Counted from the stretch's first letter, positions 2,869 through 9,010 are shown. The stretch: 62,572 nucleotides of DNA from Spirobacillus cienkowskii (GCA_003339605.1 QOVW01000062.1:1-62572), one strand, 5' to 3'. Notes: a model not told the origin generated them from the letters alone. Made by a program: numbers and translations.

Positions 2869-3002
2869 GGGTTTCTCCTATGGGACACTAAAAGACTGCT
2901 TTTTGCTAGCACAATTTTGACACTATGGGAATTTCAGAGTTACAAGATTGCTAGGATACTTGAGCACAGGTGAGTCACTTCATGCACCGAGAGGCATTTT
3001 TT

Positions 3003-4403
3003 ATGAATCAAGTAAGTTTACTACAGCTTAGGGAAGTTGCAGATCAAATGATCATGCTTGCTAGCACCTTCCAAATAAAACCACACTATCTTCGTGCAAA
3101 ACAAATTCGTCAAGCAGATAAATCACTGATTATGGTTGACGCTTTTTTTTCGAGAAATCTTAGTATTGAAGCAAAACAATGGCTAGAATCATTAAATGGA
3201 CTTAGCGTATTGCGTAAAAAGCTCGCTTCACTAGAAGAAAAACAACGAGAAATTGATGAGCTCGAAACCAGATTAAATACTTTACAATCCATAATCCAAA
3301 TTTGGTGTTCTTTAGAAGAGCCCGATAAGCAAAAAATAATTCAAAATGCGAAAAGAGCACAAGAGTTTATTCAAAATAACTTAGAAAAAACAGAAGCTCA
3401 CATTATTCACCGTTACAACAGATTCTCTGCCCTAAAAGATTTAACGCCTTATGCCGACAACGCAAGTTATCTATGCGAAGCTGTTTTTCACTACGAAAAT
3501 CGCGAAAAATATGAGTCAAACATCGAAAAAGTAGAACAAAAAATACTCAATGCCAAAGAAAGACTAAAAACAGTCAACAGAGGTTTTTGGTTGGCGGTTA
3601 TTTTTTGTTTATTTGTTGTCACAATTCCTATTTGCTTTTTATTTGTAATTAGCCTTTGGAAACGCAAAAAAGAAATAGAAAATCAAATTGCCAACAGCGA
3701 AGAAACTTTACGCCGTGAAAATAAAAGACTTGTTGCAGCCGAAGAAGGAGCGATTGTCGCACAAGACATCAGATCGCACCTAGGCGATATGTCTCTTGAG
3801 CAAATTAGAAATACTCTGGCAGAAGTTAGAGATCTCCGTGCCGAATTTCAAGGTCCAGAAAGAACCACAAGCACAACAGCAATTTTGCTGAGTTTTATTG
3901 ATTTACATCGCATCAAGCTTTCAGAGTTATTTGGAGAAATTCCAGAAAATCCCGTTAAAGTCTTTAAATGGTTTTACGAGCATGTTTCTAGATGCCAAAA
4001 CACAGAACAAACAATTCAAAAATTAATGGAAAAAAAACAAGAAGTTTTACAGCAACAAAAGCAAATTACCAAAGGATATTCGAAAGAAATTTTGATTAAT
4101 AGTATAAAAAAATTAGATTTTGTTTTAAATTCAACCATGAAGTTTACTTTTGACACAGAAAATAAAGCTCATTTTGCAGACATTTGCACAAAAATACCTC
4201 CTATTCTTGCGCAAATCCGAGAAGTTTTATTTTTTGTGAGCAGGAGTCATCCAATTGACGCCCAATATTGGGAAATGTTGCGCCTTAAAATTCAGGGATT
4301 TTCAAATATAATGTCTTTGTGTGTCTTAGATGCAGAAATTGCAAATTACGACCTTGAGCTTGTAAATGCTAAGCCTATTGAAGCAAAGAAAGGTAACGCA
4401 TGA
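3003..4403 (+). CDS. Coiled-coil membrane protein, first gene of an unknown four-gene operon
   Basis: An unrecognised 466-residue protein. I chose the ATG at 3003 because GAGAGG sits 8 bases upstream; an in-frame GTG at 2970 has no clear site. It is strongly helical. There are heptad-like Lys/Glu/Leu stretches around residues 70-110 and 160-190, then one transmembrane segment near 194-216 (FWLAVIFCLFVVTIPICFLF). A second charged coiled-coil stretch follows (KRKKEIENQIANSEETL), then a long helical C-terminal domain. There is no signal peptide at the N-terminus. It overlaps the next gene in an ATGA, so the two are probably translationally coupled. A structural or scaffold role is possible, but no function is assigned. 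Confidence 0.75.
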   Translation: MNQVSLLQLREVADQMIMLASTFQIKPHYLRAKQIRQADKSLIMVDAFFSRNLSIEAKQWLESLNGLSVLRKKLASLEEKQREIDELETRLNTLQSIIQIWCSLEEPDKQKIIQNAKRAQEFIQNNLEKTEAHIIHRYNRFSALKDLTPYADNASYLCEAVFHYENREKYESNIEKVEQKILNAKERLKTVNRGFWLAVIFCLFVVTIPICFLFVISLWKRKKEIENQIANSEETLRRENKRLVAAEEGAIVAQDIRSHLGDMSLEQIRNTLAEVRDLRAEFQGPERTTSTTAILLSFIDLHRIKLSELFGEIPENPVKVFKWFYEHVSRCQNTEQTIQKLMEKKQEVLQQQKQITKGYSKEILINSIKKLDFVLNSTMKFTFDTENKAHFADICTKIPPILAQIREVLFFVSRSHPIDAQYWEMLRLKIQGFSNIMSLCVLDAEIANYDLELVNAKPIEAKKGNA

Positions 4404-5092
4404 GTAAATTTCTAAAATGGCTCTGTATATCCCAAATTTTATGTATACAAAGTTTTGCTTTTGCAGAAAGTGAAGAAAATAAAATTAGTTTTGATTTTAC
4501 TAAAATGTCTATTTCTGCTTTTGGTGTTTTTAACGTAACACAAGACATTAAAGGGGATAGTGTTGCCGCAGAAGTCAACGCACGCAAAAATGCATTATCA
4601 AACATTTCTAATTACTTTAAAAATACTTGCAATAAAATTGAAAAAAACCAACTTGGCACTAAACCAGAATGGGAAAATCTTTTTCGTTCGCAAGGCAGTG
4701 AAATTTATGCAAACGGATTTGTAAAAGTTTCACTTGCAGCCCCATACCGCGACGTATTAAAAACACCAAATAGTGCAAAAAAGAAACCAGTAACAACAGA
4801 AGATGGTAAAAAAATTGCTTTTTCTATGCATTTAACGCTTCCAGGTAATGCAGTACAATGTGGCGCCATTATTCTTGATACAGGAAACAATAAAAAGGTT
4901 TTGGTTTCACCTGCAAAAGTAGTGTCCTCATCAATTGGCCTGACTCTCGTAAAGCTCGCTTTTGATGGCAAATCAGAATTAAAGCCAGCAACACCAGAAG
5001 ATGCCGCAATTTTACAAAACTCAACACTTGCAAAGGATCCTTATGTACCTGCTAGTGTTATTCCTATTGTCGTTGTTATTCCTGAACAATAG
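4400..5092 (+). CDS. Exported protein of unknown function (second gene of the operon)
   Basis: A 230-residue protein with a clear Sec signal peptide (FLKWLCISQILCIQSFAFA) and likely cleavage after AFA near residue 22, so probably periplasmic. The mature part is mixed alpha/beta. It includes an EVNARKNALSNISNYF helix, the kind of Ala/Asn-rich helix also seen in LPP20-like lipoproteins, but the resemblance is weak. Two cysteines are present in the mature chain (near 72 and 155). It overlaps the upstream gene by 4 bases and the downstream gene by 50 bases. No homologue recognised. Confidence 0.75.
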   Translation: MSKFLKWLCISQILCIQSFAFAESEENKISFDFTKMSISAFGVFNVTQDIKGDSVAAEVNARKNALSNISNYFKNTCNKIEKNQLGTKPEWENLFRSQGSEIYANGFVKVSLAAPYRDVLKTPNSAKKKPVTTEDGKKIAFSMHLTLPGNAVQCGAIILDTGNNKKVLVSPAKVVSSSIGLTLVKLAFDGKSELKPATPEDAAILQNSTLAKDPYVPASVIPIVVVIPEQ

Positions 5093-5813
5093 TTTTGCAA
5101 TTAGCGACAAATCCAATACAAACAACTCTTTTCAAATTCAAGAAAAAATTCCTTTTATTGTGTTTGTATGTGAATACTGTAATACAAAACAACAAAAAAT
5201 TTCAAATAATTACAATAAAAACTTTGTACAAAAATTAAAAAAATTTGAACTTTATCACGATCGCAACTGGTCAAAAGAAACACAAAATGTAATTAAAAAA
5301 CAGCAAGATAGCGAATATCAAGTACTGGGTACTAAAAGCTGGCCTCCTCAAATCCCTTTTGCAATTTCACCATTAAGCAAAGAAAATGGGTTACTTGTAT
5401 TTGTTAACTATCCAAAAGAACAAGGTTCAGCACAACCAATAGAAACTAAAAAATATATATTATTTTACAAAAAACAGGTCATTATTGGAGAAAGTGAGGA
5501 CGTTGTTCTCGAAAGCTTAACCAACAACCTACCAAAACTAAGTAATAAAATGGGTGTAAAGTTCTTTATTGCTAAAGACATTTCTGGCAATGAAATACCT
5601 GCCCTAGAAAATGTAATAAAAAACTTTACAGCAAACAAAAATTCGATAATGATTCCTTACGAAGTGACTAAAGGTGGTGTCTATTATCGTAGTGATATCA
5701 ACGTATCAAAGATCATGCATACCATAAAACAAGTAAACCAAAATGTCCCTAATCTATCTGCCAAAATAGCTAGTGGAACAATCGATGTAATAGAAGTAAC
5801 AAAATCAAAATGA
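5043..5813 (+). CDS. Exported protein with CxxC motif (third gene of the operon)
   Basis: An unrecognised 256-residue protein. The start at 5043 is chosen because AAGGA lies just upstream and because the protein then begins with a compact signal peptide (MYLLVLFLLSLLFLNNSFA). The earlier ATG at 5001 would bury that signal behind 14 polar residues. The mature protein has an early CEYC motif near residue 40, which could bind metal or form a disulfide, then a Lys/Asn-rich domain. Its first 50 bases lie inside the 3' end of the preceding gene in another frame. The stop overlaps the next start (ATGA). Confidence 0.72.
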   Translation: MYLLVLFLLSLLFLNNSFAISDKSNTNNSFQIQEKIPFIVFVCEYCNTKQQKISNNYNKNFVQKLKKFELYHDRNWSKETQNVIKKQQDSEYQVLGTKSWPPQIPFAISPLSKENGLLVFVNYPKEQGSAQPIETKKYILFYKKQVIIGESEDVVLESLTNNLPKLSNKMGVKFFIAKDISGNEIPALENVIKNFTANKNSIMIPYEVTKGGVYYRSDINVSKIMHTIKQVNQNVPNLSAKIASGTIDVIEVTKSK

Positions 5814-6298
5814 ACAGCTTGGAACAAATATTTAAACTTTCGCTCTATGCATACATTAATTATTTAAATCTAAAATCAAACCACATTAAGCAATTAAACG
5901 AGAAAGAATTTTATAATATAATTATAAATAATTTTAATAAATATGATGATTTTTTTAATAACACAAAAATATGCCCTCAATTGATAAATACTTTTTTATC
6001 ACAAACACAAATACTGTGTGAATATGAAGCAATGACTTTTATGCCTGACGATATTATTGATGAATATAATGATACTAAATTAAATATTGAAAAAACAATT
6101 GATAAAATTATTTATGAAATTTCATTACAAAAACACTTAAAGCAAGAAAACTTAAATTTGCTAGATAGACGATTATTTATAGGATTCGTCAACACTTTTA
6201 AAGAATGGACTGAAGATATTAAATTTTTTAAAAATAATGATAATGATAAATTTTTACTTTTACAAGAATCACCATTAATCTCATTGTGTCTATTCTAA
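5810..6298 (+). CDS. Cytoplasmic helical protein of unknown function (fourth gene of the operon)
   Basis: A 162-residue acidic, helix-rich protein with no signal peptide or membrane segment. It is rich in Asn, Asp, Leu and Ile (for example DDIIDEYNDTKLNIEKTIDKI). The start codon overlaps the stop of the upstream exported protein, indicating coupled translation with the envelope genes. rsmE follows 22 bases later. No family recognised. It may be a cytoplasmic partner of the membrane and periplasmic proteins encoded upstream, but that is inference from position only. Confidence 0.65.
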   Translation: MNSLEQIFKLSLYAYINYLNLKSNHIKQLNEKEFYNIIINNFNKYDDFFNNTKICPQLINTFLSQTQILCEYEAMTFMPDDIIDEYNDTKLNIEKTIDKIIYEISLQKHLKQENLNLLDRRLFIGFVNTFKEWTEDIKFFKNNDNDKFLLLQESPLISLCLF

Positions 6299-6320: not shown

Positions 6321-7097
6321 ATGACAATACAAAAACAATGCTGGACAATTTTAAGCGACGAATTAAATATAGAAAGCGAAAATATTACATTAAAAGATCA
6401 AGAACACCATTACGCTTGTAATGTGTTACGACTCAAAAATAACGACTCAGTAGAAATCACAAATTGTTATGGATTAAAAGCAACAGGAATTATTGTTAAT
6501 GCTAATAAAAAAGAACTAAAAATTAAAATATTAGCAATAAATAAACACGCAGCAATCCAACCAGTAATTCACTTATGGCTAGCAATGCCAAAACTTTCAA
6601 CAGCTGAAGATGTGATTGCAATGAGCTCAGAAATGGGCGTCAGTCAAATTCATATTTTTAAAAGCGAAAAATCTTTTACAAAATCTCCTTTAAAAATGGA
6701 AAAAGCAATACAATTAAGTAGAGAGGCAACACGAATTAGTAAAAGTGCATTTGCATCTGAAATTTATTATTATGCATCTATGAATGAGTTTTATGAAAAA
6801 AATGAAGTTCAAAAAAATTCTAAGCAATTAATTTTATTTTGTGATGAAAGTCATATTTACGAAGGCAAAATACAGAATTCAATTTTAAAAATTTTGCAAA
6901 ATAATTTTACACCAGAAACAAAAGAAATATGCATTTTAATAGGACCTGAATCCAGCTTTTCAAACAAAGAGAGAGCGTTTATTTTAAACAATATTCCTTC
7001 TTTGCCTGTATCATTAGGGCCAAACCTATTAAAAGTGCCTAATGCTGTTGCAAGTGCGCTAGGAACAGTAATAAGCTTCAGAAATGATTTCAGTTAA
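6321..7097 (+). CDS. rsmE: 16S rRNA (uracil-1498 N3)-methyltransferase
   Basis: RsmE is a SPOUT-class methyltransferase that modifies U1498 of 16S rRNA. The protein is 258 residues, normal for the family. The N-terminal PUA-like part contains DQEHHYACNVLRLKNND, matching the usual HHL.VLR block. The C-terminal SAM-binding knot has LIGPESSFSNKERAF and SLGPNLLKVPNAVASAL. The last motif deviates from the usual LGxRILRxETA (R to K, ETA replaced), so substrate handling may differ. The gene ends in a TTAA shared with the stop codon of aguB on the opposite strand. Confidence 0.85.
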   Translation: MTIQKQCWTILSDELNIESENITLKDQEHHYACNVLRLKNNDSVEITNCYGLKATGIIVNANKKELKIKILAINKHAAIQPVIHLWLAMPKLSTAEDVIAMSSEMGVSQIHIFKSEKSFTKSPLKMEKAIQLSREATRISKSAFASEIYYYASMNEFYEKNEVQKNSKQLILFCDESHIYEGKIQNSILKILQNNFTPETKEICILIGPESSFSNKERAFILNNIPSLPVSLGPNLLKVPNAVASALGTVISFRNDFS

Positions 7098-7957
7098 ATC
7101 TTACCATCTAATGTTAGTAAGTTTTTATAAAACTCTGGTCTTCTGTCTCTAAAAAAGCCCATACCAGCTCTAAAAGCTTCTGTCTCACTAAAACTCAAAT
7201 CTGCATAAATAATAGTTTCAGACTCTCTATCTGCCTCGGCAATTTTATCGCCCGTATAACTGCTTACAAAAGAACTGCCATAAAAATTCATATTTTTCTC
7301 TATGCCAACCCTGTTTGCAGCGGCAACATAAACTGCATTGCTGACAGCATGGCCAATCATAGCTCTTTGCCACATGTCTTTCGTATCCAAAGAATGTGCC
7401 TCAGGAGGTTCGCTGCCAATTGCTGTAGGATAAAGTAAAAGGTTAGCTCCTTGTAACACCATACTGCGCGCGCATTCAGGAAACCACTGATCCCAACAAA
7501 TCCCCACACCAATTTTTCCATACAATGTATTCCAAACTTTAAAACCTGTATCACCTGAATTAAAGTAATACTTTTCTTGGTAACAAGGCCCGTCAGGAAT
7601 ATGAGATTTTCGATAAACCCCCATTATACTTCCATCAGCGTTAATCATAGCAAGACTATTATAATAAGCCTGACCCGATTTTTCAAAAAAACTAACTGGT
7701 AATACTACTTTTAATTTCTTTGCTAACAACTGAAAGTGCAATAAAAAAGGATGATTTTCAACTTCATTAGCTAAAGCAAATAAATGATCAAATTGCTCCT
7801 GACAAAAATAATGATACTCAAACAATTCAGGAAGAAGAATTACATGAGCCCCATTTTTTGCAGCCTTTTCTACGTATTGAGTTGCTTTCTCAATATTAGT
7901 TTGCACATGATCAGTCATTTTTATTTGAATAAGAGCAAGTTTCGTAGTTTTTTGCAT
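7094..7957 (-). CDS. aguB: N-carbamoylputrescine amidase
   Basis: A nitrilase-superfamily enzyme that hydrolyses N-carbamoylputrescine to putrescine, CO2 and ammonia. The protein is 287 residues. The catalytic triad is visible as Glu44 (LLPELFEYHYF), Lys117 (YRKSHIPDG) and Cys154 (GVGICWDQWFPE). The DQWFPEC context and the PDGPCYQEKYYF block are typical of AguB rather than other nitrilases. It starts 3 bases after aguA ends, so both form an agmatine-to-putrescine operon. The 3' end overlaps convergent rsmE by 4 bases with no terminator between them. Confidence 0.94.
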   Translation of the reverse strand: MQKTTKLALIQIKMTDHVQTNIEKATQYVEKAAKNGAHVILLPELFEYHYFCQEQFDHLFALANEVENHPFLLHFQLLAKKLKVVLPVSFFEKSGQAYYNSLAMINADGSIMGVYRKSHIPDGPCYQEKYYFNSGDTGFKVWNTLYGKIGVGICWDQWFPECARSMVLQGANLLLYPTAIGSEPPEAHSLDTKDMWQRAMIGHAVSNAVYVAAANRVGIEKNMNFYGSSFVSSYTGDKIAEADRESETIIYADLSFSETEAFRAGMGFFRDRRPEFYKNLLTLDGKI

Positions 7958-7960
7958 TAA

Positions 7961-9010
7961 TTATAGTCTCCAAATTTGGCCCGCAGGTTGTTGTTGTGTA
8001 ACACAATGAAACGAGCCTCCTCCTGAAATAATGTATTTCGATTTTAATCCAATAACCTTATGCTCAGGAAAAACTGTTTCTAGAGTTTTTAATGCCTTAG
8101 CATCATTTGGATCATCATAAGTTGGTACCACAACAAAACCATTGCCAATATAAAAATTAGCATAAGTGCACGGCAGACGCTTTCCATCAATTTCCATTTT
8201 ATTTCTAGGTAAAACAAGAGGAACAAGATTAAAATTATTACCCGATAAATCTGTCGCTTTCTGCAAAACGTCTAAATTTTGCTGCATAGTCGCATAATTT
8301 AAATCGGTCTTATCGTCCGTAATAGAATAGACAATCGTATTTGCATTTACAAATCTTACAATTGTATCAATATGGCCATCAGTGTGATCACCTTCTAGTC
8401 CATTTTCTAGCCAAATTAGCTTATTAATACCTAAATAATTTTTAAGATATTGTTCAATGTCATCTTGTGTTAAGTTAGGGTTACGCATTTTACTTAAAAG
8501 GCATTGTTTTGTTGTTAATGCCACACCATTTCCGTTAACATCTAAAGATCCCCCTTCCATCACAACAGATGTTTGAAAAAAAGGAACTTTTAAATATTGC
8601 GCAACATAATTTGGAGCTAAGGTATCTAGGTCCCACTTAAATTTTTGTCCCCAGGCATTAAACTCCCAATTAACAAAGCTTAAGTTCTCAGCTTGTTTAA
8701 TAAATATTGGTCCATTATCTCTAAACCAAATATCGTTTAATGGCACATTATGAATAGTAACGTTTGAGTTGTTTTTAAATCTTGCATTTGCATCGATTTC
8801 CGCCTCTTGAGAACCAACAATTAAATTTACAGGCTCGTAAGTAGAAATTGTAGAGACTAACTCCTCAAACTCTTGTCTCACTTCTGATAAATGCCCAAAC
8901 CAATTTTCTTCATCAAACGGCCAGCAAGTCCATGTTGCAGCGTGCAAAGACCATTCAGCAGGCATAGAAAAACCTAGATTTAACGGTATATTATTAATTA
9001 TATCTGGCAT
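7961..9010 (-). CDS. aguA: Agmatine deiminase
   Basis: Converts agmatine to N-carbamoylputrescine, the first step of the ADI route to putrescine. The protein is 349 residues, a member of the PPAD-type guanidine-modifying superfamily. Visible signatures are PAEWSLHAATWTCWPFDEENW near the N-terminus, NDIWFRDNGPIF, EGDHTDGHIDTIVRF, and the nucleophile Cys336 in GGGSFHCVTQQQP. It is followed within 3 bases by aguB, which completes the pathway. No arginine decarboxylase is in this window, so agmatine must come from elsewhere. Confidence 0.95.
   Translation of the reverse strand: MPDIINNIPLNLGFSMPAEWSLHAATWTCWPFDEENWFGHLSEVRQEFEELVSTISTYEPVNLIVGSQEAEIDANARFKNNSNVTIHNVPLNDIWFRDNGPIFIKQAENLSFVNWEFNAWGQKFKWDLDTLAPNYVAQYLKVPFFQTSVVMEGGSLDVNGNGVALTTKQCLLSKMRNPNLTQDDIEQYLKNYLGINKLIWLENGLEGDHTDGHIDTIVRFVNANTIVYSITDDKTDLNYATMQQNLDVLQKATDLSGNNFNLVPLVLPRNKMEIDGKRLPCTYANFYIGNGFVVVPTYDDPNDAKALKTLETVFPEHKVIGLKSKYIISGGGSFHCVTQQQPAGQIWRL

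Follow-up and report, generated by a model that had tools for sequence, protein, structure and literature searches.

A five-gene unit that appears to be specific to the order Silvanigrellales lies on contig 84 of the 126-contig, 2.736-Mb assembly of "Candidatus Spirobacillus cienkowskii", a member of that order, and the products of its first three genes most likely form a cell-envelope assembly with an ORF1-ORF2 core, a reading to which we assign a probability of roughly 0.4. The organism is a red, coil-shaped pathogen of Daphnia for which both a draft genome (PMC6284087) and a closed genome (PMC12321486) have been published. All coordinates refer to the window, that is, the whole 62,572-nucleotide stretch that was analysed. 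The four consecutive genes that had been claimed at 3003-6298 are all present as open-reading frames on the + strand at these positions, and rsmE follows as the fifth gene of the unit:

2869-3002, no strand assigned: divergent intergenic region between prfC and orf1, 134 bp, a candidate regulatory region together with the orf1 leader (from its conservation in the genus)
3003-4403, + strand: orf1, 466 aa, helical and partly coiled-coil, with one 26-residue hydrophobic segment at residues 194-219 (open-reading frame, profiles)
4400-5092, + strand: orf2, 230 aa, signal-peptide protein with invariant Cys77 and Cys154 (open-reading frame, alignment, AlphaFold)
5043-5813, + strand: orf3, 256 aa, signal-peptide protein with two putative domains (open-reading frame, alignment, AlphaFold)
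5810-6298, + strand: orf4, 162 aa, acidic and fast evolving, without a signal peptide or membrane segment (open-reading frame)
6321-7097, + strand: rsmE, 16S rRNA m3U1498 methyltransferase, fifth gene of the unit (PF04452, 4.5e-21; TIGR00046, over cut-off)

The ATG at 3003 was taken as the orf1 start rather than an alternative in-frame GTG at 2970, because one congener has an extra base between 2970 and 3003 that breaks the frame. For orf3, the ATG at 5043 was preferred over a longer start at the ATG at 5001, since only 5043 is common to the whole genus. The overlaps at 4400-4403, 5043-5092, and 5810-5813, which had been claimed to lock the four genes together, are real in the window and partly genus-specific among relatives. 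The 4-nt overlap of orf1 and orf2 was present in 7 of the 13 genomes measured, and the ~50-nt overlap of orf2 with orf3 and the 4-nt overlap of orf3 with orf4 were also present in 7/13, all from the source genus, with 9-21 nt separating the orf2/orf3 and orf3/orf4 neighbours in other genera of the main family. The unit remains compact across relatives, though not always overlapping. On the 3′ side, orf4 shares 1-4 nt with rsmE in four of the relatives (G003, G004, G005, and G007), indicating that the natural unit is one of five genes with rsmE included. That orf1-orf4 are real genes is indicated by their retention in other genera and in the sister family, where identity is low yet the frames are unbroken. 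Directly 3′ of rsmE, on the opposite strand at 7094-9010, lie aguB (N-carbamoylputrescine amidase) and aguA (agmatine deiminase), a pair that converts agmatine to putrescine.

The distribution of the unit was examined in 15 Silvanigrellales genomes, representing six genera and two families, and in 43 others of the same class; the phylum-wide search covered the same 58 genomes. Single-sequence and profile searches both found orf1 and orf2 in 15/15 Silvanigrellales, even in a genome of 1.2 Mb, and in 0/43 of the other class genomes. Profile searches found orf3 in 14 and orf4 in 13 of the 15 Silvanigrellales; orf4 was found neither in the sister family (G001) nor in G002, which belongs to a different genus, and outside the order the orf3 and orf4 profiles produced few matches, all with E values of 0.002 or weaker. 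A pattern scan for ORF1 across 84,980 species genomes returned no genomes beyond the Silvanigrellales-type ones already found, and a scan of genome contigs with ORF2 patterns alone gave no match, probably owing to the narrowness of the patterns. Thirteen rsmE-region loci of the class, one from G002 and twelve from other families, contained no remote relative of the operon when searched with the four HMMs. Orthology was checked by iterative HMM searches, started from same-genus sequences, of a local database containing decoy loci, and positional orthologues of all four genes were recovered within the main family with no false matches. The sister-family orf3 was missed by these searches and does match the full A3 profile, whose alignment contains that same sequence, so it is assigned chiefly by its position and a few motifs in common. 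Given that the four-gene unit with rsmE is kept through almost the whole order and was found nowhere else searched, it probably represents a cell-envelope assembly particular to this lineage. A phage origin was rejected, as no ORF1 relative was found in IMG/VR viral contigs and no notable match in PHROGs, and a plasmid origin was rejected as no ORF1 relative was found among plasmids.

In the source genus and three further genera, the gene order is prfC (divergent), orf1, orf2, orf3, orf4, and rsmE. The sister family has no adjacent prfC, yet the series orf1-orf2-orf3-X-rsmE is intact; here X is an unrelated 231-aa exported protein (L116 4792-5484) that occupies the orf4 slot and has no Pfam match. 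The RsmE of this family is divergent (PUA_4 1.4e-5, Methyltrans_RNA 0.0041). In G002, orf1-orf2 stand alone beside prfC, orf3 is on a separate contig, where the gene downstream of it reads as formate-tetrahydrofolate ligase, and rsmE is on a third contig. In G012, a 72%-complete MAG, orf4 comes straight after orf2, and no orf3 was found. Overall, rsmE is located 3′ of the cluster in 14/15 Silvanigrellales genomes. The gene order, whose breakup in close relatives the original prediction had counted against itself, is kept in nearly all genera and broken in G002. The strict coupling that had been claimed is not supported, as the overlaps vary and as orf3 and rsmE are unlinked, and orf4 not found, in G002.

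The only pair of genes that is never separated is orf1-orf2 (15/15, with one contig break allowed for), and orf3 lies directly 3′ of orf2 in 13 of the 15 genomes, including that of the sister family. This persistent pairing, even where the unit breaks as in G002, indicates that orf1-orf2 is the core, with orf3 a frequent third member and orf4 belonging to one family only. A narrower interpretation, that only ORF1 and ORF2 cooperate while ORF3, ORF4, and RsmE are passengers in a transcript behind a strong conserved promoter, seems to us somewhat unlikely. It would be consistent with the inseparable pair, with the displacement of orf3 in G002 and its absence between orf2 and orf4 in G012, with the failure to find orf4 in G001 and G002, and with the drop in conservation along the operon, where identity to the nearest congener of another species is 79% for orf1, 76% for orf2, 53% for orf3, and 38% for orf4. 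More turnover would be expected of passengers, however, than is seen for orf3, given its position behind orf2 in both families.

ORF1 had been described as a coiled-coil inner-membrane protein, and one hydrophobic segment is indeed present. Heptad periodicity exceeded that of shuffled sequences in segments 64-105, 211-252, 316-357, and 400-441, which makes "coiled coil" a fair description for parts of the protein. The hydrophobic segment is exactly 26 residues long in 14/14 aligned sequences; 13 of these have a proline at its centre, Cys202 is invariant, and a further cysteine in the N-domain, Cys158, is near-invariant. Lysine and arginine residues flanking the segment are nearly balanced (8-11 vs 7-9 per 30 residues in 13/14), and the net charge is positive for the N-domain in 12/14 sequences and negative for the C-domain in 12/14. 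The net charges of the two halves favour an N-in/C-out topology, and an N-terminal tail of 190 residues would not usually be exported in the absence of a signal peptide. The near-equal positive charge on both sides of the proline-containing segment, along with the near-invariant Cys158, would also suit a monotopic ORF1 that has a re-entrant hydrophobic hairpin, keeps its two helical halves cytoplasmic, and acts with ORF4 at the membrane, leaving ORF2 and ORF3 to work separately in the periplasm. We consider this arrangement improbable, as the length of the segment suffices for one ordinary span, the domain net charges fit the N-in/C-out orientation, and the strongest genetic linkage of orf1 is with the exported ORF2.

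None of the four genes could be assigned to any family in the original prediction, in agreement with our finding of no significant match in Pfam, NCBIfam, PHROGs, or PADLOC. The matches in these libraries were weak, below the curated cut-off where one exists, and differed between orthologues; for anti-phage defence (PADLOC), the only one was a 15-bit PycTM match over the ORF1 hydrophobic segment. The ORF1-ORF3 profiles identified no credible relative among PDB sequences. Homology to unrelated known systems, which would have told against a new complex, was likewise not significant in any library searched. The AlphaFold2 model of ORF2 was good (mean pLDDT 81.8, pTM 0.75) and that of ORF3 fair (pLDDT 73.5, pTM 0.55), and neither model had a Foldseek match in the PDB below E = 0.001, the best being MbtI for ORF2 (E 0.042, TM 0.18) and PqiC-type proteins for ORF3 (E 0.02, query TM 0.16). 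As judged from these searches and predicted models, the four products appear to be new protein families, outside every family library searched, with ORF2 and ORF3 models outside the folds of the PDB.

The original prediction of two signal-peptide proteins stands for ORF2 and most ORF3 orthologues and fails for three ORF3 orthologues that lack a signal peptide. ORF2 orthologues with complete ends begin in a signal-peptide-like manner, as judged by eye, and have in common A61, R62, C77, W91, S97, E101, L112, C154, G155, and P171. The presence of two invariant cysteines in an exported protein suggests a disulfide. The ORF2 model starts with a strand-strand-helix-strand-strand order, and LPP20/FlgP/FlgT-type periplasmic and outer-membrane proteins are similarly exported, with the same N-terminal order and, by eye, the same A-R-x-N-A-type helix motif following a Gly-containing strand. 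Unlike these proteins, ORF2 has no lipobox, contains an invariant Cys in a second beta-rich region, and gives no profile match and no significant fold match. Membership of ORF2 in the LPP20 family (PF02169) was rejected, as profile and profile-profile tests were both against it: the LPP20 profile matched none of 14 ORF2 members, and hhalign of A2 (ORF2) with 12 LPP20-type proteins of the same class returned a probability of 0.1%. In the source genome, the LPP20 search matched another gene, G000:C117. Among the Foldseek matches of the ORF2 model in the PDB, a weak and non-significant one to Helicobacter pylori HP1454 ranked 19th (E 0.84, probability 0.38, TM 0.22); HP1454 interacts with FlgP, and its first domain resembles LPP20 (PMC11756786).

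A flagellar motor accessory, in which ORF2 would be distantly related to ring proteins of the LPP20/FlgP/FlgT kind, with ORF1 as an inner-membrane anchor, has a slim chance, as the strand-helix start of the model, the HP1454 match, and a strong FliG (FliG_C) in 15/15 Silvanigrellales genomes are set against the lack of an LPP20 match in any ORF2, the hhalign probability, and the non-significance of the Foldseek match, and as the presence of FliG in every genome provides no contrast and makes flagellar co-occurrence uninformative. In addition to the normal FliG, most Silvanigrellales (G001-G014) have one or more divergent FliG_C-domain proteins, which in some genera lie in open frames 700-1000 residues long.

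For ORF3, a signal peptide is present in the source genus, G004, G002, and G001. In the three genomes of genus g5, orf3 begins MS..LVPLAMFLINE, without a signal peptide, which questions the periplasmic location of ORF3 in those genomes. In three genomes of one genus, orf3, here without a signal peptide, is in the frame of orf2 after a stop (L041 10747-11604, L042 8538-9401, and L043 8690-9544). An orf2-orf3 fusion by stop-codon read-through was rejected, as a separate orf3 start is present, together with a plausible ribosome-binding site, and as three stops lie between the genes in one genome. The CEYC motif that had been noted in ORF3 is present and confined to the genus; CEYC/CEFC occurs in the six aligned same-genus ORF3s only and is not conserved in other genera or in the sister family, for which reason a thioredoxin-like CxxC site was rejected. 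The C-terminal order of the ORF3 model is beta-alpha-beta-beta-alpha-beta. Mixed alpha/beta domains are also found in PqiC and PelC, ring-forming outer-membrane-associated lipoproteins, and PqiC-type structures were the top Foldseek matches of the model, with PelC at rank 7. Unlike the case for an established member of this group, these matches are not significant (E >= 0.02, that is, at least 0.02, and query TM <= 0.16) and come from a model of modest confidence, ORF3 has no lipobox (the N-terminus, ..LLFLNNSFA-ISDK, was read from the sequence as having a cleavage site without cysteine), and no PqiAB or Pel genes were recognised alongside. ORF4 is acidic and soluble, without a signal peptide or membrane segment, which agrees with the cytoplasmic location claimed for it, and its conserved residues are E132, W133, E153, and P155.

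The 134-bp region between prfC and orf1 had a mean identity of 88% within the genus, and its best 90-nt window, at 93%, was the most conserved in the 6.4 kb compared, coding sequence included. For comparison, mean identity was 31-63% in four other intergenic regions, with a best 90-nt window of at most 74%, and the third codon positions of prfC and orf1 were ~51% identical. This exceptional conservation points to a strongly constrained shared regulation, and the region may hold regulation common to release factor 3 (prfC) and the operon. A search of Rfam with the conserved leader gave no match, and sigma-70-type promoters and terminators were not above chance. RNA folding of the leader was weak (best z values of -1.2 for the window and -2.05 for one congener), and we therefore make no claim of a structured RNA.

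Wherever the contig allows, an inner-membrane component (ORF1) and a periplasmic component (ORF2) are encoded together, and a trans-envelope complex, as originally proposed, is the best reading for ORF1-ORF2, possibly with ORF3. In this complex, ORF1 would be an inner-membrane helical scaffold, most likely with ~190 N-terminal residues in the cytoplasm and ~245 C-terminal residues in the periplasm, and ORF2 a disulfide-stabilised periplasmic protein that would partner ORF1 to make up the core. ORF3 would be a second partner, mostly periplasmic, and ORF4 a cytoplasmic accessory in one of the two families, possibly a looser partner. All five genes would be co-transcribed as one unit, with rsmE sharing the transcript for expression reasons. 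The bitopic inner-membrane anchors of Tol-Pal and ExbBD-TonB offer a likeness, in that an inner-membrane protein would similarly be encoded beside its periplasmic partners; unlike those systems, the unit has no Pfam or NCBIfam similarity to them and no multi-transmembrane partner of the ion-channel type. As for the process served, our best guess is a structural or shape-related envelope function.

The Silvanigrellales are pigmented, pleomorphic or helical bacteria that include isolates from human samples as well as the Daphnia pathogen, and we found no published work on what determines their cell envelope or shape at the molecular level. Kept order-wide, down to a genome of 1.2 Mb, with no copy found elsewhere in our searches, the operon is a candidate for a cellular feature that defines its lineage. 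The stronger proposal is that the unit encodes a new trans-envelope machine, found only in Silvanigrellales and probably near-essential to them, whose protein families have no known relatives and whose promoter region, which would also serve prfC, is exceptionally conserved. We hold it to be unlikely, at about one chance in four in our estimation; if true, such a machine could account for the pleomorphic or helical shape of these cells, or act as a new accessory of a motor or of the envelope. Operons of unknown function that are restricted to one lineage are common, the present one being unusually well retained, and the function of the four families may prove ordinary; if the unit is an ordinary envelope accessory, its significance would be mostly taxonomic. 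Four new protein families with a clear ORF1-ORF2 core provide an experimental entry point in a cultured relative.

Two strains of the species differ at ~33 positions within a ~240-bp stretch of orf4 (6000-6240), and at 0-4 positions in each of orf1-orf3 and rsmE. Synonymous divergence between these strains is also raised in orf4 (pS 0.18). This pattern suggests that 6000-6240 is a recombination tract imported into orf4.
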